A DNA stretch of 11,564 nucleotides from a bacterium (GTDB taxonomy: Bacteria > SM23-31 > JAUVVT01). Below, piece by piece: positions 1 through 11,564 of this stretch. Each line of letters opens with the position of its first letter. Position 1 is the stretch's first letter. The notes under the pieces were generated by a model. That model did no database searches. It was not told the origin of the DNA and saw only the letters and a program-made list of their open reading frames with translations. Made by a program: the position numbers and the translations under genes. Where the stretch lies: contig JAUWXV010000111.1 in assembly GCA_030616165.1 (NCBI GenBank), positions 1 to 11,564 on the forward strand, written 5' to 3'.

Positions 1-1419
1 ATAAATATTAATTATAATTGGAAATCTCCCTGAAATACCATGTGTGGCACAAGCAAGACAAGGATCATAAGCTCTAAATGCGATTTCTACCATATTAAGA
101 ATCCCATCTGAAACATTTCCATTCTTTATTAAACATCTTGCAGCTTTTTCGATGGACATGCAAATCCCAGCAGCATTATTTTGAGTTGCCACAATCAAAT
201 TGACATCTTTAAGTATCCCGTTTTCATCAGTCTTATAATGATGAAATAATGTTCCGCGCGGCGCTTCTACCACACCTATTCCTTCACTGGGCGTTTCTCT
301 CGGAATATTTCTGATTTTTGGGCTTGTTATTTCCGGGTCGTTAGCAAGTTCAAGCATCCTCTCAGCTGCATATAATGTTTCAATAAGACGAGCCCAATGA
401 AATGCCAGCGTAAAATGTGCCGGTTTTTCTCCAAGAGTCTTGTACATCCTCTGGTATTCAGCATCAGCAAGGGGGGTTGCCATCCCTTCTGAAACGTTCA
501 ACCTTGCAAGAGGGGCAACTCTAAATATCCCGCTATCTTCTCCATCAATAAATCCTTTCCACCCTACACTCTTTAGATAAACAAACTTAACATAAGTCCA
601 GGGTTCTACGTGTTCGCTGATATAATTTAAATAATCCGACGGTTTAAATTTCGCTTTTTCCTTCCCATTTGGATCAACAACTCTAATATCACCATCATAA
701 AAATTCACCTTATTGTTCTTATCCACAAGCCCCATGTAATAAGTCTTGTGAAAATATATATCACCAGTAATTAGGTCAAGATATGTTTTATTCTTTAGCA
801 CTACGTCCTCAAAAATTTGAAGAGAAAATTTGGCAAACTCCACACCATATTCAGCCGATTTTATAATTTTCTCTCTTTCTTCTTCAGTGACACCTTTAGC
901 AACACCGCCGGGCAGTCCGAATACTGGATGAACAACCTTTCCACCCAGAGTGGTTATTATCTCTCTGCATTCGCGTCTTAATCTTAATACTTTGCCCCCG
1001 ATTTCAAGACCAACTTTTGCCAATACTCCAAGTATATTCCTTTCCTTTGCAGGCGCCTGAGGACCAACAATAAAATCAGGACCCCCGAGAAAAAAGAAAT
1101 GGAGAGTATGGTCTTCAAGCATGAAAGTAGAATATATTAATTCTCTTATCTTTTTTGCTGTTGGAGGTGGTTCTACTTTATATAAATCGTCCAATGCTTT
1201 TGTTGAAGCGGTGTGGTGTGCCGTTGGACAAACACCACATATCCGAGTTGTAATTCTCGGCATCTCTTCAGCAGGTCTCCCCTCACAGAATTTTTCAAAT
1301 CCCCTGAACTCTGGTATTTGAAAATAGGCATGTTCTACATTTCCATCTTCATTTAAAAATATTTCTATTTTACCGTGTCCTTCAAGCCTTGTTATAGGAT
1401 CTATCGTTATTCTCTCCAT
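1..1419 (-). CDS. mvhA: [NiFe]-hydrogenase large subunit, group 3c (MvhA-like), 3' end outside window
   Basis: Catalytic subunit that splits or forms H2 at a NiFe(CN)2CO centre; cytoplasmic, with no membrane segment seen. An open frame of 473 codons without a stop runs off the window start. Both nickel-binding motifs are visible: RICGVC at residues 59-64 (Cys61, Cys64, followed by PTAHH) and DPCLACATH at 452-460 (Cys454, Cys457, His460). The N-terminus (MERITIDPITRLEGHGKIEI) is the usual start of this family. At least 13 residues follow His460, which fits a C-terminal peptide removed by a maturation protease after nickel insertion; that protease is not in the window. The ATG lies 4 bases after the mvhG stop, with GAAGG (1433-1429) 9 bases upstream. 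The neighbouring mvhG, mvhD and hdr genes place it in the Mvh/Hdr-linked group 3c rather than in 3b or 3d. Group assignment is by motif and context only. Confidence 0.93.
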   Translation of the reverse strand, partial: MERITIDPITRLEGHGKIEIFLNEDGNVEHAYFQIPEFRGFEKFCEGRPAEEMPRITTRICGVCPTAHHTASTKALDDLYKVEPPPTAKKIRELIYSTFMLEDHTLHFFFLGGPDFIVGPQAPAKERNILGVLAKVGLEIGGKVLRLRRECREIITTLGGKVVHPVFGLPGGVAKGVTEEEREKIIKSAEYGVEFAKFSLQIFEDVVLKNKTYLDLITGDIYFHKTYYMGLVDKNNKVNFYDGDIRVVDPNGKEKAKFKPSDYLNYISEHVEPWTYVKFVYLKSVGWKGFIDGEDSGIFRVAPLARLNVSEGMATPLADAEYQRMYKTLGEKPAHFTLAFHWARLIETLYAAERMLELANDPEITSPKIRNIPRETPSEGIGVVEAPRGTLFHHYKTDENGILKDVNLIVATQNNAAGICMSIEKAARCLIKNGNVSDGILNMVEIAFRAYDPCLACATHGISGRFPIIINIY

Positions 1420-1423
1420 GTTC

Positions 1424-2392
1424 TTATGCCTTCAATTTTTTTCTTTTTAGTGGTGATGATGCAAGACTGAATCTGTAAAATGTCCCAATTAGGTCAGGAA
1501 TAGTCTCAACGATACTCTGAATTTCCCCTTGCTCGTTAGTATCGATAATCGATGCAAGAGCAGAAAGGAATTTTGCCCCCTGGTCAATTACAGAGTCTGT
1601 AGGTCCAAAACATCCCCTGCAGGGCATATTACCTTTTATGCATCTTTCACCACATCCGGACCTTGTTGCCGGCCCAAGACATATTATTCCTTGTTCAAGA
1701 AAGCATTTTTCATCATCAGAAACTATTTCAAAGATTCTTTTCATCTCTTTTATTTTCAACTTATCAGGTTTTGTTTTATTCCTCTCACAAGTCTCACAGA
1801 GGGTTTTGTCTGAAGCAATAACTGCACCCTTAGGAGGCAGCTTCCCCTCTAAAATTGCATGTACAGCTTTCATTATGAGGTCTGGAGGAGGAGGACATCC
1901 GGGAAGGTAATAATCAACATCTACCACCCTGTCCAGAGGCTTCACTGTGTTATAAAAACTGGGAAGTTCCAACTCACCAACATCTAATTTTACCTTTTCT
2001 TGAGGATATATCTCTTCTAAATTCACCACAGAAGGAACCTTTTTATATGCCCTTTTAAAAATTTCATTTTTATTTGAGATATTTGCCAGGGCTGGAATCC
2101 CACCCATATGTGCACAGCTTCCGAAAGCCACAACCAGCCCTGATTTTTTTCTCAAAAGTTCTACTACCTCTTCCTGTTCGGATAATCTTACCGCACCATT
2201 TATAAAAGAGACCGCTATTGAACCATCTTCCATCGATTCGACATCTTTCTTTTTAAAATCGAAAGCTACGGGCCAGAATATAATATCCACTGCATCAACG
2301 ACCTTAAGTATATCCTCATTTAAATCTAACACTGCCTCTTCACAACCACCACAGCTCGCACACCAGTAAAATCCTACTTTTGGTTTTTCCAT
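1424..2392 (-). CDS. mvhG: [NiFe]-hydrogenase small subunit (MvhG-like)
   Basis: Electron-transfer subunit of the hydrogenase; it carries electrons between the NiFe site and MvhD through a chain of [4Fe-4S] clusters. The 322-residue protein is close to the family's usual length. It has no twin-arginine signal, so it is cytoplasmic. The proximal-cluster cysteines are seen as CGGCEE (Cys14, Cys17), GSCAHMGG near residue 92 and LPGCPPPP near residue 166. Cys11, in CASCGGC, is an extra cysteine. Distal ligands lie in the C-terminal half: LCETCERNK, then a cysteine-rich stretch with CFLEQGIICLG, SGCGERC and MPCRGCFGP, which would hold two further clusters. The ATG follows the mvhD stop by 1 base, and its GGAGG site lies inside the end of mvhD, so translation is probably coupled. 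Confidence 0.93.
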   Translation of the reverse strand: MEKPKVGFYWCASCGGCEEAVLDLNEDILKVVDAVDIIFWPVAFDFKKKDVESMEDGSIAVSFINGAVRLSEQEEVVELLRKKSGLVVAFGSCAHMGGIPALANISNKNEIFKRAYKKVPSVVNLEEIYPQEKVKLDVGELELPSFYNTVKPLDRVVDVDYYLPGCPPPPDLIMKAVHAILEGKLPPKGAVIASDKTLCETCERNKTKPDKLKIKEMKRIFEIVSDDEKCFLEQGIICLGPATRSGCGERCIKGNMPCRGCFGPTDSVIDQGAKFLSALASIIDTNEQGEIQSIVETIPDLIGTFYRFSLASSPLKRKKLKA

Positions 2393-2393
2393 A

Positions 2394-2837
2394 TTAAACC
2401 TCCAAAACTTCTTTCCAGTTAAGAGGACCTAATTTTTTTATTTTCTCAGTTGCATCTTTTACTACTTCTGTAAATTTTTCACCTTCGGCAGCAGAAACCC
2501 ACTCGAGTCGGAATCTTTCATCTTCTATCCCAAACTCACCTAAAAGTTTTTTCATCATAGAATATCGTCTGATTGTTTTATAGTTGCCTTCTTTATAATG
2601 ACAGTCACCCGGGTGACAGCCAAATATCAAAACTCCATCTGCACCCTCGGAATATGCTTTCATAACAAAACTCGGGTCGACCCTCCCTGAACACATTACC
2701 CTTATAGGAATCAAGTTGGGAGGATATTCAATTCTACTTGTTCCCGCAAGGTCTGCTCCTTGATATGAACACCATCTGCATAAAAAACCAACCAGCTTTG
2801 GTTCAAAATCATTATTTACTATTATCAATCTCTCCAA
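2394..2837 (-). CDS. mvhD: MvhD/FlpD-family [2Fe-2S] electron adapter between hydrogenase and HdrA
   Basis: A small iron-sulfur protein which in methanogens docks the hydrogenase (or formate dehydrogenase) onto HdrA and passes electrons to it. The 147-residue length is typical. The five family cysteines are present: Cys20 and Cys23 ([15 protein letters not shown]), Cys49 ([13 protein letters not shown]), and Cys74 and Cys79 ([14 protein letters not shown]). There is no in-frame ATG near the 5' end: a stop lies two codons upstream, so the start must be non-ATG. TTG at 2837 is given here. TTG at 2828 (residue 4) is the alternative, because GGAG (2835-2832) lies just before it, though with short spacing. 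The gene follows the NuoG-HdrA fusion by 48 bases and precedes mvhG by 1 base. Its place next to the C-terminal HdrA half fits its role as HdrA's input partner. Confidence 0.92.
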
Positions 2838-2885: not shown

Positions 2886-4631
2886 TTATATTAATACACC
2901 CTCAATTTCAGCAAAGATTTGCTCATCTTGAAATCCATTTTGTCTTGCAACACCGCCTGGACAAGCAGCTACGCACGCTCCGCACCCTTTACATAACATC
3001 TCCTGAATTTCACTAACATTTTCTTCTTCATTAAAAGTGATTGCATCATAAGGGCATACACTTATACAAATCTTACATCCTGCACACAGTTTATCATCAA
3101 TTACAGAATAGATAGGTTCTACTGAGTAATAATCGCCGAGAGATAGTACCCCTCCGGCAGCACCTGCACCCTGTGCAACACTATCAGGAATATCTTTTGG
3201 CCCCTGACATGCTCCTGCGATAAATATACCATCTGAATCAGTAGAAATAGGACCAAGTTTTGGATGCTGTTCTCTGAAAAATCCATCTGCGCTCAATGTC
3301 AAACCAAAAAGTTTAGCAACTTCTTCTGAATCATTCCTCGAAATTACAGCAGGACAGAGAACTACCATATCGACTGGTATTCTTCTCACAATTCCTACCA
3401 ATGTGTCCTCACATCTCACTATAAGTTTTCCTTCTTCTTCTGGTGTAAGTGCGCCATCATTTACTTCTGCAACCTTACCCCTGATAAAAGTTACACCCTC
3501 AGAAAGCATTCGATTATAAAACTCTTCATATCCCTTTCCGAATGAACGTATATCTATATAAAATTCATATATGTGGGCATTAGTCTTCTCATGCACAAGA
3601 TGAGCAAACTTCATTGCATACATACAGCAAACCCGTGAACAGTATGATTTATAGTTTTTGTCCCTACTTCCAACACAATGAATAATTGCGACTTGCTGAG
3701 GTTCACTTCCATTTTCAAGTAATATTTTTCCGCCAGTAGGACCACTGGCATGACAGAGATGTTCGAATTGAAGACCATTAATCACATTAGGATATTTTCC
3801 ATACCCATACTCTGGAATTTTCAGGGAATCAAACAGTTCATATCCTGTAGTCAATATCGCCGCACCAACATCTACCTCTTCGTATTCATCTTTCATATCA
3901 TGATTAATGGCATCCGATTCACATAATTTTTCACACAATTTGCAGTTATCAGTCTTAAAATGAATACAGTAATTCACATCAATTACTGGCACATTTGGTA
4001 TCGCCTGCAGAAAAGGAACTCTAATTGCTTTTGTGGGACCGAGATATAAATAATCATGCAGAACTTTTCTGCCTTTAATATCTTCTATCTTAATAGCCTC
4101 TGTCGGACAAAAATATTCACAGGCTCCGCATCCAATACAAACATCAGATTCTACTTTAAAAGGAGTAGATACTTCCCTTTCGGGACCTCGATTAACAAAA
4201 CTGATCGCATTCACTCCTACAATTTCTTCACAGGCACGAACACAGAGACCACACAGTATACAGCGCTGTTCTTTTTCTTCAACAAATCTTGATTCTTCTA
4301 TACCAAGTTTAGCAGCAATCTCCCTAATTTTCTCTACAGAAGGAGCACGTGCCAGAAGAAGTTCTGCGACCATTTTCCGGACATTAATCACACTTAATGA
4401 ATCAGTTTTTACCACCATACCATCTTCGACTTCTGTGGAACAGGAGGCTGTTATAGTTGTTCTCCCGTTGGAAGTTACTTCAACTATGCAAAGCCGACAT
4501 GCATTGTATGGCTTTATCATTTCATGATAACATAAAGTCGGTATATCAATCCCCATATCCCTTGCTACTTTCAGGATAGTTGTTCCCTCTTCTACATCTA
4601 TCTTTTTACCATCTAATACTATTGAAACCAT
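2886..4631 (-). CDS. NuoG-type ferredoxin fused to the C-terminal half of HdrA
   Basis: Chimeric iron-sulfur flavoprotein of 581 residues. Residues 1-80 are a NuoG/HydA-type [2Fe-2S] domain (Cys34, Cys45, Cys48, Cys64). Residues 120-180 hold two [4Fe-4S] sites (Cys124/127/130/134 and Cys165/168/171/175). The His-Cys cluster motif that normally lies between them in NuoG is absent; residues 94-110 read ARAPSVEKIREIAAKLG. From about residue 197 the protein is HdrA: GPTKAIRVPFLQAIPNVPVI, a cluster site around Cys222/230/233/237, the block IIHCVGSRDKN then YCSRVCCMYAMKFA (317-343), the FAD-domain end IFIAGACQGPKDIPDSVAQG (469-488), and a C-terminal two-[4Fe-4S] ferredoxin (Cys516/519/522/526 and Cys547/550/553/557). 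It lacks the GxGxxG FAD motif of HdrA, which is in the separate gene at 8363-9214. AAGGGG lies 5 bases before the ATG. It follows nuoF-gltD by 79 bases. Expected role: electron wiring between MvhD, the NuoEF module and the HdrA flavin. Confidence 0.9.
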   Translation of the reverse strand: MVSIVLDGKKIDVEEGTTILKVARDMGIDIPTLCYHEMIKPYNACRLCIVEVTSNGRTTITASCSTEVEDGMVVKTDSLSVINVRKMVAELLLARAPSVEKIREIAAKLGIEESRFVEEKEQRCILCGLCVRACEEIVGVNAISFVNRGPEREVSTPFKVESDVCIGCGACEYFCPTEAIKIEDIKGRKVLHDYLYLGPTKAIRVPFLQAIPNVPVIDVNYCIHFKTDNCKLCEKLCESDAINHDMKDEYEEVDVGAAILTTGYELFDSLKIPEYGYGKYPNVINGLQFEHLCHASGPTGGKILLENGSEPQQVAIIHCVGSRDKNYKSYCSRVCCMYAMKFAHLVHEKTNAHIYEFYIDIRSFGKGYEEFYNRMLSEGVTFIRGKVAEVNDGALTPEEEGKLIVRCEDTLVGIVRRIPVDMVVLCPAVISRNDSEEVAKLFGLTLSADGFFREQHPKLGPISTDSDGIFIAGACQGPKDIPDSVAQGAGAAGGVLSLGDYYSVEPIYSVIDDKLCAGCKICISVCPYDAITFNEEENVSEIQEMLCKGCGACVAACPGGVARQNGFQDEQIFAEIEGVLI

Positions 4632-4710
4632 AATATCCCCTTAATATAGATTTAAAAAACATAAAATCGTTATTACAAATAATTGAAAAATCATTTTTTA
4701 TTTCTGAATT

Positions 4711-7700
4711 TTATTTCTCTTTTAGGTCACACCTCAGACATCTTTTAGCCTCCAACATTGCAGTTTTTTCTGTAAATCCAAGTTCCACGATATTGAAATT
4801 ACCTTTTCTTCTTCCAACTGGATTTTTAGGCATTTCAGGTCTTTTTAATTCCAATACTTCTTCAGGCGTTAATTTAATTGGTTCTATATACATCGAGGGT
4901 GGTGAGATAAAATATTCTCTCTCTAATTTTTCACCTTCAAGGTATCTTCTTATTGATTCGGCGGCTCTCTTCCCATGAGCGATTGAATCCGCAATTGTCG
5001 AGGGTCCGGTAACAACATCACCTGCTGCAAAAATCCCATCATAGCTTGATACCAAAGTCTCTGGATTTACTGCAAGAGTTTTCCATTTTGAAATTTCGAG
5101 ATCATAATCTTTTGGAAGGAATGATATGTCCGGTTCCTGCCCGACGGCAACTAACAATGTATCCATTGGAATGATAAATTCTGATCCCTTTATTGGAATA
5201 GGTCTTCTCCTCCCGCTTCTGTCAAAATCTCCGAGTCCCATCTTTATACATTTGATTGCAGTTAGTTTTTCATTTTCAGAGATAACCTCGACTGGTGCTG
5301 TCAGAAATATAAACTCAATACCCTCCTCAAAACCCGCCTCAAGTTCGGTTTTCATCGCTGGCATATCTGCCTTTGTTCTTCTGTAAATTATAGAAACTTT
5401 ATCGCATCCCAGACGCCGTGCAGTTCGAGCTGAATCTATCGCTGTATTGCCACTCCCTATAACACCCACAACTTTACCCAATTGTGGTTTTTTCCCTATA
5501 TTTACATCCTTTAAAAATTCAAGCCCATCAATTATCCCTTCTTTATCTTCTCCAGGAATCCCCATTTTTATGCTTTTATGAGCACCAGTTGCTATTAATA
5601 TTGCAGAATACCCTTTTAAAAAAAGTTCATCGAAAGAAATGTCTTTCCCTATACATGTATTGGTTTTTACTTCTATACCAGCCTTCATAACAAGCCCAAT
5701 TTCTTTATTCAGGACATCCTTTGGGAGTCTAAAATCGGGTATTGCGGATGCTATCATACCCCCTGGGTTAGGTTCTTTCTCAAAAATGGTGACTTTGTAT
5801 CCCCATTTAACAAGATCAAGTCCTGCTGCAAGTCCAGCTGGTCCGGAGCCTATTATTGCAACTGCTTTTGATTTTTTTCGAACCTTTGGGATAGGTATAG
5901 CTCTCATTCCCTTGTTGAGTTCCTGGTCCCCGATAAATCTCTTTAATCCCTTGATAAACATTGGCTTGTCCTCACTTTCTATATGCCTGCATCTGTCTTC
6001 GCATGGATGATGACATATATACCCGCAGACTATAGGTAGTGGATTATCCTTTCTTATTACATCGAAGGAATCCCGGTATTTCCTTTGTGCAACAAGTGCT
6101 ATAAATGCCGGAACATCGGTATGAATGGGGCAGTTGTATTTGCATGGTGTAAAGACTATCTCTTTGCAAACCATTGCAGAGCATCTTCTGTATTTTATAT
6201 GTTGTTCATACTCATCTCTAAAATAGCGTATTGTGCTCAAAACTGGATTAGGGGCTGTTCTCCCCAGTCCACACAATGCCCCGTCTTTAACTGCATGAGA
6301 AAGTTCTTCAAGTAATTCTATATCACCTTCTTTTCCTTTTCCATTTGTTATATCCGTGAGAATTTTTAGCATTTGCTTTGTCCCCTCTCTGCATGGGACA
6401 CATTTCCCACAGGATTCTTCATTAGTAAAGTTGAGGAAATATTTTGCAATATCTACCACGCAAGTATCTTCATCCATAACCACCATTCCACCAGAGCCCA
6501 TAATTGATCCGACATCCGTAAGGTGTTCGAAGTCTACGGGTATATTTATCAACTCAAGTGGAATACACCCTCCTGATGGACCACCGGTCTGTACGGATCT
6601 AAATTTTTTATTTTTAGCAATTCCCCCACCTATATCATATATTATTTCCTGTAATGATATTCCCATAGGCACTTCTACAAGCCCCGTATTTTTGATTTTA
6701 CCCACAAGAGAAAATACTTTAGTCCCTTTACTTAACCCGTCTCCAATGTTGTTGTACCAATCTTTCCCTTTGGAAATGATAGGTGGAACATTTGCCCAGG
6801 TTTCAACATTATTTATATTAGTAGGATTCCCCCAGAGCCCTTTTTCAACTGGATATGGTGGCCTTTGTCTTGGTTCCCCTGGATGTCCCTCAATCGAGGA
6901 TATCATTGCCGTTTCCTCGCCACAAACAAAAGCCCCACTTCCTCTAACTATATTAATTTTGAAATTAAATCCGGAGTTAAAAATGTTTTCACCAAGCAGT
7001 CCATATTTTTCAGCGTTTGACATTGCAGCGGAGATCCTCTCAACCGCAAGTGGATATTCTGCTCTAACATAGATATACCCCTCATCTGAGCCGATAGCAT
7101 AAGCGCCGATAGTCATACCTTCAATTATGCTAAATGGGTCCCCTTCAAGGATACTTCCATCTATGTATGCACCTGGGTCTCCTTCATCTGCATTGCATAT
7201 AATATATTTTTTTTCTCCTTTTGACTTTCTACATAACGACCATTTTTTGCCAGTTAAGAACCCAGCACCCCCTCTCCCCCTCAATCCTGACTTAATCATC
7301 TCTTCTATTACATCTTCAGATGTATACTCCTTTAAAACCTTAAAAAGAGAAAAATATCCTCCCATTGCAATATATTCTTGAATGCTATTTGGATTTATAA
7401 TACCACAATCCCTCAGAGCAATTTTCGACTGCTTTTTGTAAAATGGAATTTCAAAAAACGAAGGAAGACTATTTGTTTCTTCAATTTCAATGCTAATAGG
7501 ATATTTTTTTACTTCTTCCGTAATAAGGGATTTTATTTGATCGATCTTACCAATTATCCACTCTTTTTTTATCTTTTTGTTAACAATAATATCTATAAGT
7601 TCTTCTACTTTTTCAGGGGTAATCTCTCCGTATATAATTCTCGGCAAACCTTTAACAGATACATCCACTAAAGGTTCTTTCTGACAGAAACCCAAGCATC

Positions 7701-7899
7701 CAACTGGAATAACTATTAACTGAATTCCATTATTATCGATTATATACTTCATTTTGCTGTAAACTTCTCCAGCACCACTTGCAAGCCCACAGCTTGCCAT
7801 GCCAACCATAATTTTCGACTTCGAAGGATAAATTGTTTTTAATCCCTCTTTTTTTAATTCTATCAAATCCTCTAAAACTTCAATATTTTTAGGTCTCAT
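4711..7899 (-). CDS. NuoF/HydB-type NADH oxidoreductase fused to a GltD/NfnL-like NAD(P)H flavoprotein
   Basis: Fusion protein of 1062 residues with two predicted nicotinamide sites. Residues 1-115 are a thioredoxin-like [2Fe-2S] domain with three recognisable cysteines (Cys37, Cys68, Cys72). Residues 160-560 are NuoF: FMN/NADH motifs GLRGRGGAGFLTGKKW (206-220; the usual Pro is Leu215), NADEGDPGAYIDG (236-248), GAFVCGEETAM (322-332) and GLWGNPTNINNVET (354-367). The [4Fe-4S] ligands are ESCGKCVPC (Cys497/500/503) plus Cys543. The C-terminal ferredoxin domain of HydB is missing. In its place, from residue 573, comes a GltD-type unit: an N-terminal two-cluster domain (Cys573/578/586/590 and Cys625/629/633/637), an FAD fold (VAIIGSGPAGLAAG at 680-693, PGGM), a second dinucleotide fold (GVIGSGNTAIDSARTARRLG) followed by YRRTKADMPA, whose arginines suit NADPH, and FAAGDVVTGPSTIADSIAHG. 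It ends with CLRC (1054-1057). The gene follows nuoE by 9 bases; AGAGG lies before the ATG. Substrates are inferred. Confidence 0.92.
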   Translation of the reverse strand: MRPKNIEVLEDLIELKKEGLKTIYPSKSKIMVGMASCGLASGAGEVYSKMKYIIDNNGIQLIVIPVGCLGFCQKEPLVDVSVKGLPRIIYGEITPEKVEELIDIIVNKKIKKEWIIGKIDQIKSLITEEVKKYPISIEIEETNSLPSFFEIPFYKKQSKIALRDCGIINPNSIQEYIAMGGYFSLFKVLKEYTSEDVIEEMIKSGLRGRGGAGFLTGKKWSLCRKSKGEKKYIICNADEGDPGAYIDGSILEGDPFSIIEGMTIGAYAIGSDEGYIYVRAEYPLAVERISAAMSNAEKYGLLGENIFNSGFNFKINIVRGSGAFVCGEETAMISSIEGHPGEPRQRPPYPVEKGLWGNPTNINNVETWANVPPIISKGKDWYNNIGDGLSKGTKVFSLVGKIKNTGLVEVPMGISLQEIIYDIGGGIAKNKKFRSVQTGGPSGGCIPLELINIPVDFEHLTDVGSIMGSGGMVVMDEDTCVVDIAKYFLNFTNEESCGKCVPCREGTKQMLKILTDITNGKGKEGDIELLEELSHAVKDGALCGLGRTAPNPVLSTIRYFRDEYEQHIKYRRCSAMVCKEIVFTPCKYNCPIHTDVPAFIALVAQRKYRDSFDVIRKDNPLPIVCGYICHHPCEDRCRHIESEDKPMFIKGLKRFIGDQELNKGMRAIPIPKVRKKSKAVAIIGSGPAGLAAGLDLVKWGYKVTIFEKEPNPGGMIASAIPDFRLPKDVLNKEIGLVMKAGIEVKTNTCIGKDISFDELFLKGYSAILIATGAHKSIKMGIPGEDKEGIIDGLEFLKDVNIGKKPQLGKVVGVIGSGNTAIDSARTARRLGCDKVSIIYRRTKADMPAMKTELEAGFEEGIEFIFLTAPVEVISENEKLTAIKCIKMGLGDFDRSGRRRPIPIKGSEFIIPMDTLLVAVGQEPDISFLPKDYDLEISKWKTLAVNPETLVSSYDGIFAAGDVVTGPSTIADSIAHGKRAAESIRRYLEGEKLEREYFISPPSMYIEPIKLTPEEVLELKRPEMPKNPVGRRKGNFNIVELGFTEKTAMLEAKRCLRCDLKEK

Positions 7900-7908
7900 A
7901 ACAATCCT

Positions 7909-8361
7909 CTATTGATATTTTTTCAAAATATCTGAAATAGTCTCTTCTCTTAAACGTCCATGTGCGCCTTTATTAACCATTATAATTGGAGCAATACTGC
8001 AGCATCCAAGACAATGAACTGTTTCTATGGAAAATTTCTTGTCCTCAGTGGTTTCTCCTGATTTTATTTTCAAATGTTCTTCAAGAGTTTTCATAATACC
8101 TTCTCCACCCCTCACATAACAGGTTGTTCCCAAACAAATTTTTATCTGGTTTTTCCCCTTCGGAACAAGGCTGAAAGCATTATAAAAGGTAGCAATCGAA
8201 TAAACCCTGCTTAAAGGGACATTTAGTTTTTCTGAAACTTTTTTAAGCACTTCTTCGGGAAGATAATATAATCTATCCTGAATATCCTGAAGAGCGTTTA
8301 TCACCATCTCCGTTTTATTTTTATATTTTTCCAAAATCGTATTAACTTCTTCAATATCCAT
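7909..8361 (-). CDS. NuoE/HydC-type [2Fe-2S] thioredoxin-like subunit
   Basis: Partner of the NuoF-type NADH-oxidising subunit in complex I, HydABC-type bifurcating hydrogenases and NAD-dependent formate dehydrogenases. It carries one [2Fe-2S] cluster close to the FMN of NuoF. The 150-residue length is normal. It has an N-terminal helical part with LYYLPEEVLKKVSEKLNVP and VYSIATFYNAF, both typical of the family. The four cluster ligands are seen: Cys76 and Cys81 (CLGTTCYVRGG), then Cys117 and Cys121 (HCLGCCSIAP; Cys120 is an extra cysteine). The ATG lies 1 base after the stop of the HdrA N-terminal gene, behind the strong site GGAGGAGG. It belongs with the nuoF-gltD gene directly downstream. 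Family assignment is firm; whether the module runs toward NADH or from NADH cannot be read from the sequence. Confidence 0.95.
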   Translation of the reverse strand: MDIEEVNTILEKYKNKTEMVINALQDIQDRLYYLPEEVLKKVSEKLNVPLSRVYSIATFYNAFSLVPKGKNQIKICLGTTCYVRGGEGIMKTLEEHLKIKSGETTEDKKFSIETVHCLGCCSIAPIIMVNKGAHGRLREETISDILKKYQ

Positions 8362-8362
8362 T

Positions 8363-9214
8363 TTACACCTCCTCCCTTACAGTGGATATAACCAATTCAT
8401 CTTTTTTGATAATTTTTTCAATGGGAATTATCGATGTTGGACAGCTGCTCCAGCATATACCACATCCTGTGCAGAGATCAGTATTTACATAGCGTGGTTT
8501 TTTGTGTACTTTTACTTTAAAATTTCCAATATAACCAGAGACTTCTTTTACTTCACTGTAAGACATTATTTTGATATTTTTATTTTGTCCTACAGCACTC
8601 ATTTTGGGAGTCAATATACATGCAGCACAGTCAAGTGTTGGAAAAGTCTTATCCAGTTCAGCCATCCGTCCCCCGATAGATGGCTCCTTTTCCACAAGAT
8701 AAACTTTTCTTCCTGCATCAGCAAGCCTCAATGCCGCCTCTATACCGGTTATCCCTCCTCCAATGATAAGGACATCCGGATTTACAGGAACTTTTTTAAC
8801 TTCAAGCGGCTCCTGAAAAGCAACTCTTTTTACTGCTGCTGCTACTATCTTTCTTGCCTTTTCTGTTGCTAATGTGGAATCTTTTGTTACCCAGGAACAG
8901 TGTTCTCTGATATTCGCCATCTGAAAAAGATAAGGATTTAATCCGGCACTTTCACAAACGCCTCTGAAAGTATGTTCGTGCAGTGTTGGAGAGCAGGAAG
9001 ATACAACTACACGATTTAGTTCCTTATCTTTAATATCTTTCCTTATCATCTCCTGACCGGGCTCAGAACACATGTATTTATAATCTCCACATATAACTAC
9101 ATTATCAAGTCCAGATATAAATTTTACAAGATTATTTATATTAACCTTCCCAGCTATATTAGTCCCACAGTGACAAACATAAACTCCAATTCTCAACTCG
9201 TCACTATTATTCAT
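8363..9214 (-). CDS. hdrA: HdrA, N-terminal half only (FAD-binding motif and first ferredoxin cluster)
   Basis: Flavin subunit of heterodisulfide reductase, but only its first half: 283 residues against roughly 650-670 for a full HdrA. The N-terminal iron-sulfur domain is present (VYVCHCGTNI with Cys14/Cys16, MCSEPGQ with Cys49, SCSPTLHEHTFRG with Cys74). The FAD Rossmann motif VLIIGGGITGIEAALRLADAG follows (GGGITG at 152-157), then GGRMAELDKTFPTLDCAACI (Cys196, Cys199) and one [4Fe-4S] site LCTGCGICWSSCP (Cys248/251/254/258). The protein stops about 25 residues later, where normal HdrA continues into the second inserted cluster and the rest of the FAD fold. That continuation is found in the gene at 2886-4631. 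The start chosen is the ATG at 9214, because GGAGGG (9227-9222) sits 7 bases before it; the TTG at 9229 would overlap this site. The stop is clean and followed within 1 base by nuoE, so this is not simple truncation at a damaged end. Confidence 0.9.
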   Translation of the reverse strand: MNNSDELRIGVYVCHCGTNIAGKVNINNLVKFISGLDNVVICGDYKYMCSEPGQEMIRKDIKDKELNRVVVSSCSPTLHEHTFRGVCESAGLNPYLFQMANIREHCSWVTKDSTLATEKARKIVAAAVKRVAFQEPLEVKKVPVNPDVLIIGGGITGIEAALRLADAGRKVYLVEKEPSIGGRMAELDKTFPTLDCAACILTPKMSAVGQNKNIKIMSYSEVKEVSGYIGNFKVKVHKKPRYVNTDLCTGCGICWSSCPTSIIPIEKIIKKDELVISTVREEV

Positions 9215-9221
9215 AAAAACT

Positions 9222-9227
9222 CCCTCC
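9222..9227 (-). promoter_or_regulatory. Ribosome binding site that fixes the hdrA start
   Basis: GGAGGG lies 7 bases before the ATG at 9214-9212. An in-frame TTG at 9229 would extend the protein by five residues, but it overlaps this site and has nothing like it upstream, so the ATG is the better start. Confidence 0.8.
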
Positions 9228-9251
9228 AAATTTTAACACAGATAAAGAATG

Positions 9252-9289
9252 AAAATACAAAATATAAGTAAAAAATACAAATTATAAGT
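9252..9289. repeat. Two tandem 18-base AT-rich repeats, 20-base period, in the hdrB-hdrA gap
   Basis: Two copies (9252-9269 and 9272-9289) match at 17 of 18 bases, reading AAAATACAAAATATAAGT and AAAATACAAATTATAAGT on the plus strand. They lie in the 107-base gap between the hdrB stop and the hdrA start, the longest gap inside the operon. A 20-base period is near two helical turns, so a protein-binding role is possible. Local duplication in AT-rich DNA is equally likely. No convincing terminator or promoter is seen in this gap. Confidence 0.5.
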
Positions 9290-9321
9290 TCGCTTTTTTA
9301 ATTCGTGTAATCTGTAAGTTA

Positions 9322-10188
9322 TCAGGCCACTTCCAGAAGAGTCTTTAAACTTATTATTGATCTGTTCAGCCCTAATTTTTCTCTTGGTAAACCGAATGCA
9401 ATACCCATAATCTGGGAAAAATAGAGTACCGGAATTGAAAAAGAAGATTTATATTGTTTATTGATTTTAGATTGGTAACATTCCAAATTGAATTGACACA
9501 GTGGACAGACTGTAGTGACACAGTTTGCTCCTCTAACTTGAGCCTCGTATAGCAAGATATAATTTAATCTTAATCCAACATCTTCAATAGTCCCGGTAAG
9601 AGACCCACCACAACATCGAGTCTTAAAAGGATGGTCAACAACCTCTGCACCCAATGCGTTCATAATATTATCGAGGGACATCGGGTATCGGGGGTCATCA
9701 AAATCTGGATATGGTCTTACAATTTGACAACCATAATAACAAAACACTTTCCACCCATTTAGGGGCTTTTTTACCCTCTTTTTGATATCTTCTATCATAC
9801 TATCATTGGTTAACAATTCGAGAGGATGCTTTACTTTAACTTTTCCATTATATTCCATACCCGCTGATTTTAAAGCATCAAGAATCTTTTTGCCGATCTG
9901 GTCATATTTTTTAATATAATCATCTGCCTTTTTAAGCACAAGATAACAGGCACTACAGGGTGTAATCAGGTCAGATTTATTATTTTTTTCTGCTAAAGAT
10001 AAATTTCTCGCAGCTAATGCAAAAGCCTTCAATTCATTTATTGACATATAAGTTGTAGCACCACAGCAGTTCCAATCTTCAATTTCGTTAAGTTCAATAT
10101 TCAACTCTTTAAGAGTGTTAATCAATGATTCTTCATAATGTTTTCCAGTTCCCTTCACCGAACATCCGGGATAATAATTATATTCCAT
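9322..10188 (-). CDS. hdrB: Heterodisulfide reductase subunit B (two CCG domains)
   Basis: Catalytic subunit of the Hdr family; in methanogens it reduces the CoM-S-S-CoB disulfide using two non-cubane [4Fe-4S] clusters. The 288-residue protein contains both CCG cysteine sets in full: Cys9, Cys41-Cys42 and Cys78/Cys81 (YYPGCSVKG, WNCCGATT, TPCSAC), then Cys154, Cys192-Cys193 and Cys228/Cys231 (YYGCQIVRPYP, RCCGGSLTGT, VCPLCQ). Spacing and length match canonical HdrB, so a functional disulfide-type active site is expected. The physiological substrate in a bacterium is unknown. It follows hdrC by 5 bases, and its Shine-Dalgarno site (GAGGAG) overlaps the end of hdrC. The protein is soluble, with no membrane segment seen. 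Confidence 0.96.
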   Translation of the reverse strand: MEYNYYPGCSVKGTGKHYEESLINTLKELNIELNEIEDWNCCGATTYMSINELKAFALAARNLSLAEKNNKSDLITPCSACYLVLKKADDYIKKYDQIGKKILDALKSAGMEYNGKVKVKHPLELLTNDSMIEDIKKRVKKPLNGWKVFCYYGCQIVRPYPDFDDPRYPMSLDNIMNALGAEVVDHPFKTRCCGGSLTGTIEDVGLRLNYILLYEAQVRGANCVTTVCPLCQFNLECYQSKINKQYKSSFSIPVLYFSQIMGIAFGLPREKLGLNRSIISLKTLLEVA

Positions 10189-10193
10189 AATAT

Positions 10194-10763
10194 TTACTCC
10201 TCAATGGAATTTAAAATAGTTTTGAGTTGTTTTATATTTTTAATAGCATCAGATTTAAAATTCATCCTTCCAGTTTTAATCAGCTTCAGTCCAAGAGAAG
10301 CCATACCAAAAAATTTTAAAGGATTCGTTTTCAAAAGAAGTTTAAAAACCAGGTTGATTTCGGTATTTCTTCCTTTCTTACTTACCATATTAAAAAACTC
10401 CTTCGAAAGGACAGAAATAGGAAACCTTTTTGGATATTTTTTATTTTCAATGGCTTTCTGTTTCAAAATATACATTAGGTCAGTCACTTTAATATTCATA
10501 GGACATTGAATAGTACAAGTATAACACGACGAGCATAACCAGATAGTAAAACTCTTGAGTACTTCATCTTTGAATCCTGCTTTTATCATTGCTATAAGCC
10601 TTCTTGGTGTATAATCCATATATATACTCAAAGGACAGGACCCACTGCACATTCCGCATTGGATACATTGTTCCACATTTTCACCTCCAGGTGTTGATAC
10701 AATCCACCTCCAAAAACTGTCATCCAGTTCTTTCTCATATTTAATCCTTTTGTTTATCTCCAT
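10194..10763 (-). CDS. hdrC: Heterodisulfide reductase subunit C (two [4Fe-4S] ferredoxin)
   Basis: Electron-transfer subunit linking HdrA to HdrB. The protein has 189 residues, a normal length for HdrC. Two [4Fe-4S] sites are seen: QCIQCGMCSGSCP (Cys33/36/39/43) and WLCSSCYTCTIQCP (Cys77/80/83/87). Between them is the family segment DYTPRRLIAMIKAGF. The C-terminal part (about 90-189) is lysine-rich and helical-looking, and no membrane-spanning segment is evident, so this is the soluble HdrC rather than the membrane HdrDE type. It is the first gene of the operon: GGAGG (10772-10768) lies 4 bases before the ATG, and the sigma-54 promoter is about 70 bases further upstream. Confidence 0.95.
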   Translation of the reverse strand: MEINKRIKYEKELDDSFWRWIVSTPGGENVEQCIQCGMCSGSCPLSIYMDYTPRRLIAMIKAGFKDEVLKSFTIWLCSSCYTCTIQCPMNIKVTDLMYILKQKAIENKKYPKRFPISVLSKEFFNMVSKKGRNTEINLVFKLLLKTNPLKFFGMASLGLKLIKTGRMNFKSDAIKNIKQLKTILNSIEE

Positions 10764-10835: not shown

Positions 10836-10851
10836 AGCAATTTTTATACCA
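10836..10851 (-). promoter_or_regulatory. Sigma-54 (-24/-12) promoter of the hdr-nuo-mvh operon
   Basis: On the minus strand the sequence reads TGGTATAAAAATTGCT. It contains the invariant GG and GC doublets separated by exactly 10 bases, with the consensus TGG at -24 and the full TTGCT at -12. It is the only GG-N10-GC match for this strand in the spacer. Transcription would start near 10825, giving a leader of about 60 bases before hdrC. The gene immediately upstream encodes a sigma-54-dependent activator, which supports the call independently. Confidence 0.75.
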
Positions 10852-11068: not shown

Positions 11069-11564
11069 TCAAATATATTTTTTAATATTAATTTCATTTT
11101 TCTTCATCATAGCCTGAAAATTAGTTCTCTGCATTCCAGCATTTTTTGCTGCTTTTGTTATATTCCAGTTATTTCTTTTCAATGATTCTAATAAAAAATT
11201 TTTCTCTATTTCTTTATATAATTTTTCTTTTGTAATCCTTTTCATATGTTTCAGTTCAGAATTACTCTTCGGGACTCCTCTTATTATTTCTATATTGCGA
11301 TATATATTTGGTGGTAAATTTTTAGAATGGATTGCATTTCCATCATTAGTAACTATCAATCTTTCAATAATATTTTCAAGTTCTCGGACATTTCCTGGCC
11401 ATTCATATTCTGTAAAAAGTTTCATGGTATCGGGAGAAATATATTTTATCTTCTTTCCAACTTTCTTATTAAATTTATCAATAAAGTGATAAACTAATAG
11501 TGGTATATCAGATTTTCGCTCCTTTAATGGTGGAATTACTATTGGAACGATATTTAATCTATAA
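11069..11564 (-). CDS. Sigma-54-dependent transcriptional activator (NtrC family), C-terminal part
   Basis: The visible 164 residues are the end of an enhancer-binding protein whose start lies beyond the window; the frame is open to the window edge. It begins in the AAA+ ATPase domain with YRLNIVPIVIPPLKERKSDI, then LLVYHFIDKFNKK, and the family hallmark YEWPGNVRELENIIERL. After a short linker comes a Fis-type helix-turn-helix: FLLESLKRNNWNITKAAKNA followed by GMQRTNFQAMMKK. An internal ATG at 11425 should not be taken as the start, since the conserved AAA+ sequence continues upstream of it. The sensory domain is outside the window, so the signal is unknown. Position and orientation, directly upstream of a sigma-54 promoter, suggest that it controls the redox operon. 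Confidence 0.93.
   Translation of the reverse strand, partial: YRLNIVPIVIPPLKERKSDIPLLVYHFIDKFNKKVGKKIKYISPDTMKLFTEYEWPGNVRELENIIERLIVTNDGNAIHSKNLPPNIYRNIEIIRGVPKSNSELKHMKRITKEKLYKEIEKNFLLESLKRNNWNITKAAKNAGMQRTNFQAMMKKNEINIKKYI

Follow-up and report, generated by a model that had tools for sequence, protein, structure and literature searches.

The window (the whole stretch of DNA analyzed, 11,564 nucleotides) carries an operon in which HdrA is divided between two genes at its ferredoxin port, and the break is filled by homologs of nuoE, nuoF and nuoG. Since HdrA is cut at this port by a cassette that handles NAD(H), the hydrogenase, the disulfide-reductase-like enzyme and the NAD(P)H sites encoded by the operon are probably parts of one machine. 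Judged from the sequence, the probability is about 0.5 that the operon specifies a single soluble hydrogenase-HdrABC complex, with a Bfu-type NAD(H) module occupying the HdrA ferredoxin port and NAD(P)(H) as the present outlet.

Operon layout and the divided HdrA

The window corresponds to contig C34 of a fragmented draft genome (343 contigs), whose phylum is represented by six genomes in the collection used. Nine genes, all on the (-) strand, are read from position 10763 to 1 in the order HdrC, HdrB, HdrA N-half, NuoE, NuoF-GltD, NuoG-HdrA chimera, MvhD, MvhG and MvhA. They are separated by 1–92 bases (fewer than 10 bases in five of the eight gaps), and the FMN, FAD, NAD(P), [NiFe] ligand, HdrB CCG and HdrC cluster motifs of the encoded proteins are all intact. 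HdrC (10194..10763) contains two CxxCxxCxxxC motifs and HdrB (9322..10188) two complete CCG (cysteine-rich) motifs. At the opposite end are MvhD (2394..2837; five cysteines), the hydrogenase small subunit MvhG (1424..2392; family match) and the [NiFe] large subunit MvhA (1..1419), which is cut at the contig end, yet after its last Ni ligand motif, DPCLACATH. The sequence-only reading had placed a complete MvhAGD hydrogenase within positions 2886–10763; all three genes were found, but at 1–2837, outside that interval, and with an incomplete MvhA.

The NCBIfam HdrA2 profile (777 positions) is covered at positions 1–257 by the protein encoded at 8363..9229, and resumes at 265–640 in the protein encoded at 2886..4631. 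Alignment with a solved HdrA (5odc_A) gave a corresponding picture, with the N-half matching residues 2–260 and the C-half extending from about 265 to 649–654. The inserted ferredoxin domain, via which low-potential electrons are thought to leave HdrA for ferredoxin (PMC9012536), has two cluster motifs, and the break falls in the loop that connects them. The N-half is a gene of its own, encoding the N-terminal cluster domain, the FAD Rossmann motif GGGITG and the first [4Fe-4S] motif of the inserted domain. The genes for NuoE and NuoF come next, and the C-half (2886..4055), with the second inserted-ferredoxin motif, the rest of the FAD domain and the C-terminal 2[4Fe-4S] domain, is fused behind the NuoG (BfuA) [2Fe-2S]/2[4Fe-4S] domain (4056..4631).

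The protein previously read as NuoG-like therefore represents a NuoG-HdrA chimera: its residues 1–192 are indeed of NuoG type, but the remainder is the C-half of HdrA. The NuoG part carries clusters A1, A2 and A4 (one [2Fe-2S] and two [4Fe-4S]), with 12 conserved cysteines. Residues E290 and K341 of the chimera align (with PDB HdrA chains) to E356 and K409 of HdrA, the Glu/Lys pair that holds and tunes the bifurcating FAD (PMC12054007). A single-chain model of the chimera (alignment of 11 sequences; pLDDT 66 overall) served solely to show which parts look unfolded. The first 110 residues, belonging to the NuoG part, had a mean pLDDT of 72–92, and two stretches of the C-half (186–263 and 453–506) fell below 50; the latter may need the HdrA N-half.

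NuoE (HydC/BfuC; 7909..8361), a thioredoxin-like protein, contains the [2Fe-2S] ligands of BfuC. The NuoF (HydB/BfuB) part of the adjacent fusion (6174..7899), whose best PDB match is the bifurcating NiFe-HydB 7t2r_B, consists of a Trx-like N-domain followed by a core that keeps the FMN/NAD site, the B1 cluster and the B2 ligand positions, with Thr at the semi-conserved B2 site. The 2[4Fe-4S] ferredoxin-docking tail (B3/B4) is absent, the window NuoF protein having no CxxCxxCxxxC motif; both tail clusters are kept in the related loci L025 and L026. The place of the tail is occupied by a GltD/NfnB-like domain (4711..6189) with an FAD motif, 4Fe-4S cysteines and the motif GSGNTA, which is of NADP type by the rule in PMC12054007. 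The operon encodes no NfnA/PyrK-type partner for this domain. Structure prediction for the NuoF-GltD protein was poor (pLDDT 59; alignment of 6 sequences). The GltD/NfnL-like domain of the sequence-only reading was thus recovered with its FAD and NADP-type motifs, but as a part of NuoF and not as a separate Nfn module.

A GltD tail on NuoF is common to the window, L024 and L045, and its combination with MvhDGA was seen in the window only among the loci compared (the L024 contig stops ahead of mvh, and L045 has a downstream hydrogenase that is more distant, with 26–28% identity). NuoE with NuoF-GltD fusions, and no full HdrA adjoining, was also observed in L108, L117, L121 and L122; this form is apparently a separate, little studied transhydrogenase-like type.

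Upstream of the operon lies the C-terminal part of a sigma-54 (NtrC-type) regulator (11069..11563, (-) strand), with an AAA lid and a Fis-type HTH, which is likely a regulator outside the complex. A candidate sigma-54 -24/-12 promoter, TGGTATAAAAATTGCT (10836..10851, (-) strand), is located about 70 bases ahead of HdrC and has one consensus mismatch; the site is weak, because matches occur across the window at chance frequency. Scans for sigma-70 promoters and terminators gave counts at chance level. NtrC-type sigma-54 regulators adjoin the operon in several unrelated genomes (L026, L045, L052, L063 and L093).

Recurrence of the chimera and probable repeated use of the ferredoxin port

A survey of about 85,000 species, each represented by a single genome, yielded at least 80 best loci, most of them with the chimera. 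In this survey, of a kind proposed in the sequence-only reading, NuoG-HdrA chimeras are present in at least about 55 loci, in many bacterial phyla and some archaea. Full-length relatives with matching neighbors were identified in genomes G005 (same class, 64% identity) and G006 (another phylum, 68%), and in a second G006 copy the HdrA N-half is fused to NuoE. Among the matches listed, 54 chimeras were classed, including the window and three loci from earlier searches; the HdrA N-half lies upstream in 36 of these 54, fused to NuoE in 20 of the 36. The HdrA Glu/Lys pair was found in 55/55 chimeras listed, a set defined by a slightly looser inclusion rule than the 54.

Two forms were distinguished: (i) Type I chimeras (about 590 aa), which are window-like, usually accompanied by hdrBC and often by mvhDGA, and (ii) Type II chimeras (about 1080 aa), which are followed by a second HdrA, constitute a split double HdrA, and are common in Desulfobacteraceae and others. 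The ligand cysteines are conserved in both types, truncated copies excepted. In L024, L025, L045 and L048, small genes resembling DRTGG/CBS, ATPase and PHP proteins (by eye) lie between the HdrA N-half and NuoE; HydABC operons contain genes of this sort, which hints that the Nuo cassette was derived from such an operon.

In a tree of the HdrA C-half, Type I chimeras form separate, well-supported groups among unsplit and GltD-inserted HdrA proteins, and Type II chimeras stand apart from them, near double HdrA. Placement of Type I in one clade was rejected (delta lnL 324, p-AU 1.5e-46, in a quick tree), and insertion at the same port therefore seems to be repeated. The simplest reading of these trees suggests that nuoEFG entered the HdrA port more than once; they could alternatively reflect re-fusion or recombination. 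Insertion of GltD into the inserted-ferredoxin domain of HdrA has been published for ANME-1 and Bathyarchaeota (PMC9012536, PMC12054007). HdrA with a whole GltD domain at the same port was found at L030 (6200–9631) and L031 (6965–10354), which belong to phyla other than the methane-metabolising archaea of the published cases. A broader view can be put forward only tentatively, namely that the HdrA ferredoxin port may be a general plug-in site, into which nuoEFG was inserted more than once to give two flavin bifurcation sites in series, the window variant exchanging the second ferredoxin site for NADP(H) and coupling H2, disulfide, NADH and NADPH without soluble ferredoxin.

Proposed electron route and alternative explanations

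In the one-complex reading, the two halves would together make up a single HdrA that binds FAD, with the NuoG clusters in place of soluble ferredoxin. The HdrA flavin would bifurcate, the route within HdrA being adopted from PMC9012536. The high-potential electron would pass through HdrC to HdrB and reduce a disulfide or a comparable acceptor, while its low-potential counterpart would cross the reassembled inserted ferredoxin domain to reach NuoG and then NuoF. In most relatives, NuoF with its ferredoxin-docking tail could serve both NAD(H) and ferredoxin; since this tail is replaced by GltD in the window, the outlet there is probably twofold, the FMN serving NAD(H) and the GltD FAD serving NADP(H). 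The net, reversible reaction would involve H2, NAD(P)+ and an acceptor resembling a disulfide, the direction, acceptor and stoichiometry being presumed.

One complex is favored because HdrA is whole only if its N-half associates with the half fused to NuoG, and because 20 of the related loci listed show a fusion of the N-half to NuoE. On these sequence grounds the single complex envisaged by the sequence-only reading has better support than that reading could give it. The HdrA, NuoE/F/G and GltD modules are all present in one operon, but HdrA is not a separate module, lying in two genes. Three independent bifurcating modules, as stated there, were rejected: NuoG is on one chain with part of HdrA, the B3/B4 tail is missing from NuoF, the GltD of Stn, likewise joined to a Bfu core, does not bifurcate (PMC10482914), and only HdrA keeps residues tied to bifurcation. 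Several points speak against the one-complex reading. No DsrC was found in the draft genome, and except at low H2 it would be energetically wasteful to deliver low-potential electrons to NAD(P)+. The need for another NADP(H) link is also questionable, since Stn-like and Nfn-like genes are present elsewhere in the genome.

In one alternative, the NuoEFG core would itself couple NAD(H) to a low-potential partner by bifurcation or confurcation, and would pass mid-potential electrons to HdrA for a second bifurcation, as proposed for the Bam complex (PMC9304861). Its closeness to bifurcating HydB/BfuB, the retained B2 ligand positions with Thr at the semi-conserved site, and the presence of both tail clusters in relatives such as L025 and L026 are consistent with such a two-stage arrangement; however, the window protein lacks the B3/B4 clusters, which are said to be always present in Bfu members and are required by the family definition (PMC9304861), and we regard this explanation as unlikely. 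HdrA could also be a mere wire that lost bifurcation upon splitting and fusion, leaving a simple H2:NAD(P)+ oxidoreductase with vestigial or structural HdrBC. Stn offers a precedent, its GltD having lost bifurcation (PMC10482914), and at ordinary H2 levels the potentials of H2 and NAD(P)+ need no bifurcation. The invariance of the E356/K409 equivalents in all 55 chimeras listed and the intact HdrB and HdrC motifs argue against this, and make it improbable.

That Hdr, Mvh and a NuoEF-GltD transhydrogenase are separate enzymes sharing an operon appears highly improbable: Hdr-Mvh is normally self-contained and NuoF-GltD exists without HdrA elsewhere (L108, L117, L121 and L122), but HdrA is incomplete without its NuoG-fused half, and in many loci both sides of the break carry fusions, to NuoE and to NuoG. 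The split might also have arisen by chance, through gene decay or from an error of assembly, and the genome is indeed a draft whose contig stops within MvhA; but dozens of genomes assembled independently, and belonging to different phyla, show the identical break with full ligand conservation, which reduces this explanation to a negligible one. A sequencing artefact as the cause of the split was ruled out by the genome survey.

The source genome contains a CODH/ACS cluster and, apart from that of the window, only one NiFe hydrogenase, which lies in a membrane-type cluster. Genes of Nfn-like, Stn-like, NuoEF-containing and complex-I type are present separately; the gene assignments in these clusters come from similarity to the window proteins and from reading of sequence starts. 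Within this 343-contig draft there was no match to an [FeFe] hydrogenase and no DsrC as a possible HdrBC partner. The CODH/ACS cluster and the hydrogenase content count in favor of the one-complex reading. One run of genes (L131, G000:C215, 4702–11851) encodes NuoE, NuoF, a large NuoG-type protein and then an Nfn-like pair of PyrK-like (by eye) and GltD-like proteins. A second HdrA of the genome (L027, G000:C301, 12740–12810) has an in-frame UGA (DCSI-UGA-ILAPKM) where a conserved cysteine would be expected and, to judge from this context, is probably a selenocysteine HdrA. At several related loci HdrA and MvhD show interruptions that look similar.

If the one-complex reading is true, anaerobes rewire electron bifurcation through exchange of the low-potential outlet of HdrA, and many uncultured phyla, along with some archaea, possess a family of complexes that physically unite the chemistry of H2, NAD(P)H and thiols. 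Annotation as "NuoG" or "HdrA" hides such chimeras, and metabolic models of these genomes may therefore be wrong. The alternation of a ferredoxin tail and a GltD tail within one operon type provides a natural comparison for the electron exit site.

Comparison with known systems

The Bam complex (class II benzoyl-CoA reductase BamBCDEFGHI, Bam-Bfu) holds homologs of both HdrA and NuoEFG (PMC9304861), namely an HdrA-type module and BamG/H/I, but it has a tungsten enzyme and no hydrogenase. No tungsten BamBC genes lie beside the HdrA/Nuo genes in the window, with which the contig ends, and in the Bam-looking loci L102, L103 and L111 NuoG is a gene of its own and HdrA is uninterrupted by it. The gene combination, thought possibly undescribed in the sequence-only reading, was therefore already known as far as HdrA together with NuoEFG is concerned; the part that may be new is the split of HdrA around a Nuo cassette, since no description of a split HdrA or NuoG-HdrA chimera was found in the searchable, open-access literature (subscription papers were outside the scope). 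In Desulfotignum phosphitoxidans, nuoEFG occurs in units with hdrA and mvhD; in the part of PMC4046663 consulted these are reported as gene lists, with no split or chimera described, and they may represent the Type II form of the survey.

The FeFe-, NiFe- and Wor-type Bfu/HydABC enzymes share with the window BfuC, the BfuB core and a BfuA with one [2Fe-2S] and two [4Fe-4S] clusters (Type 2-like content). They differ in possessing the B3/B4 tail, and PMC9304861 lists no member whose BfuA carries half of HdrA, as it does in the window. Stn/Nfn-Bfu transhydrogenases (8oh5, 9bov, 9n5u) likewise combine a Bfu core with a GltD domain followed by a CxxC segment, but GltD is joined to the NuoG-like subunit there and to NuoF, replacing the ferredoxin tail, here; in the structurally studied Stn, the GltD joined to the Bfu core is non-bifurcating (PMC10482914). 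Compared with Nfn (NfnAB), the window has the NfnB/GltD-like domain with its FAD and NADPH motifs, but not the NfnA/PyrK-like partner.

Type III HdrA of ANME-1 and Bathyarchaeota resembles the window in placing a foreign redox module (an NfnB/GltD insert) in the same inserted-ferredoxin domain, and mvhADG is found near it in Bathyarchaeota (PMC12054007). It is, however, one chain with GltD only, whereas the break in the window is filled by three genes and GltD resides on NuoF. With MvhAGD-HdrABC of methanogens (5odc, 8rvu), the window shares all HdrA domains, HdrB, HdrC and MvhAGD, with conserved ligands and FAD residues; in contrast to the one-chain HdrA with a free port in that complex, HdrA of the window consists of two polypeptides, and its port is occupied by NuoE, NuoF and NuoG.
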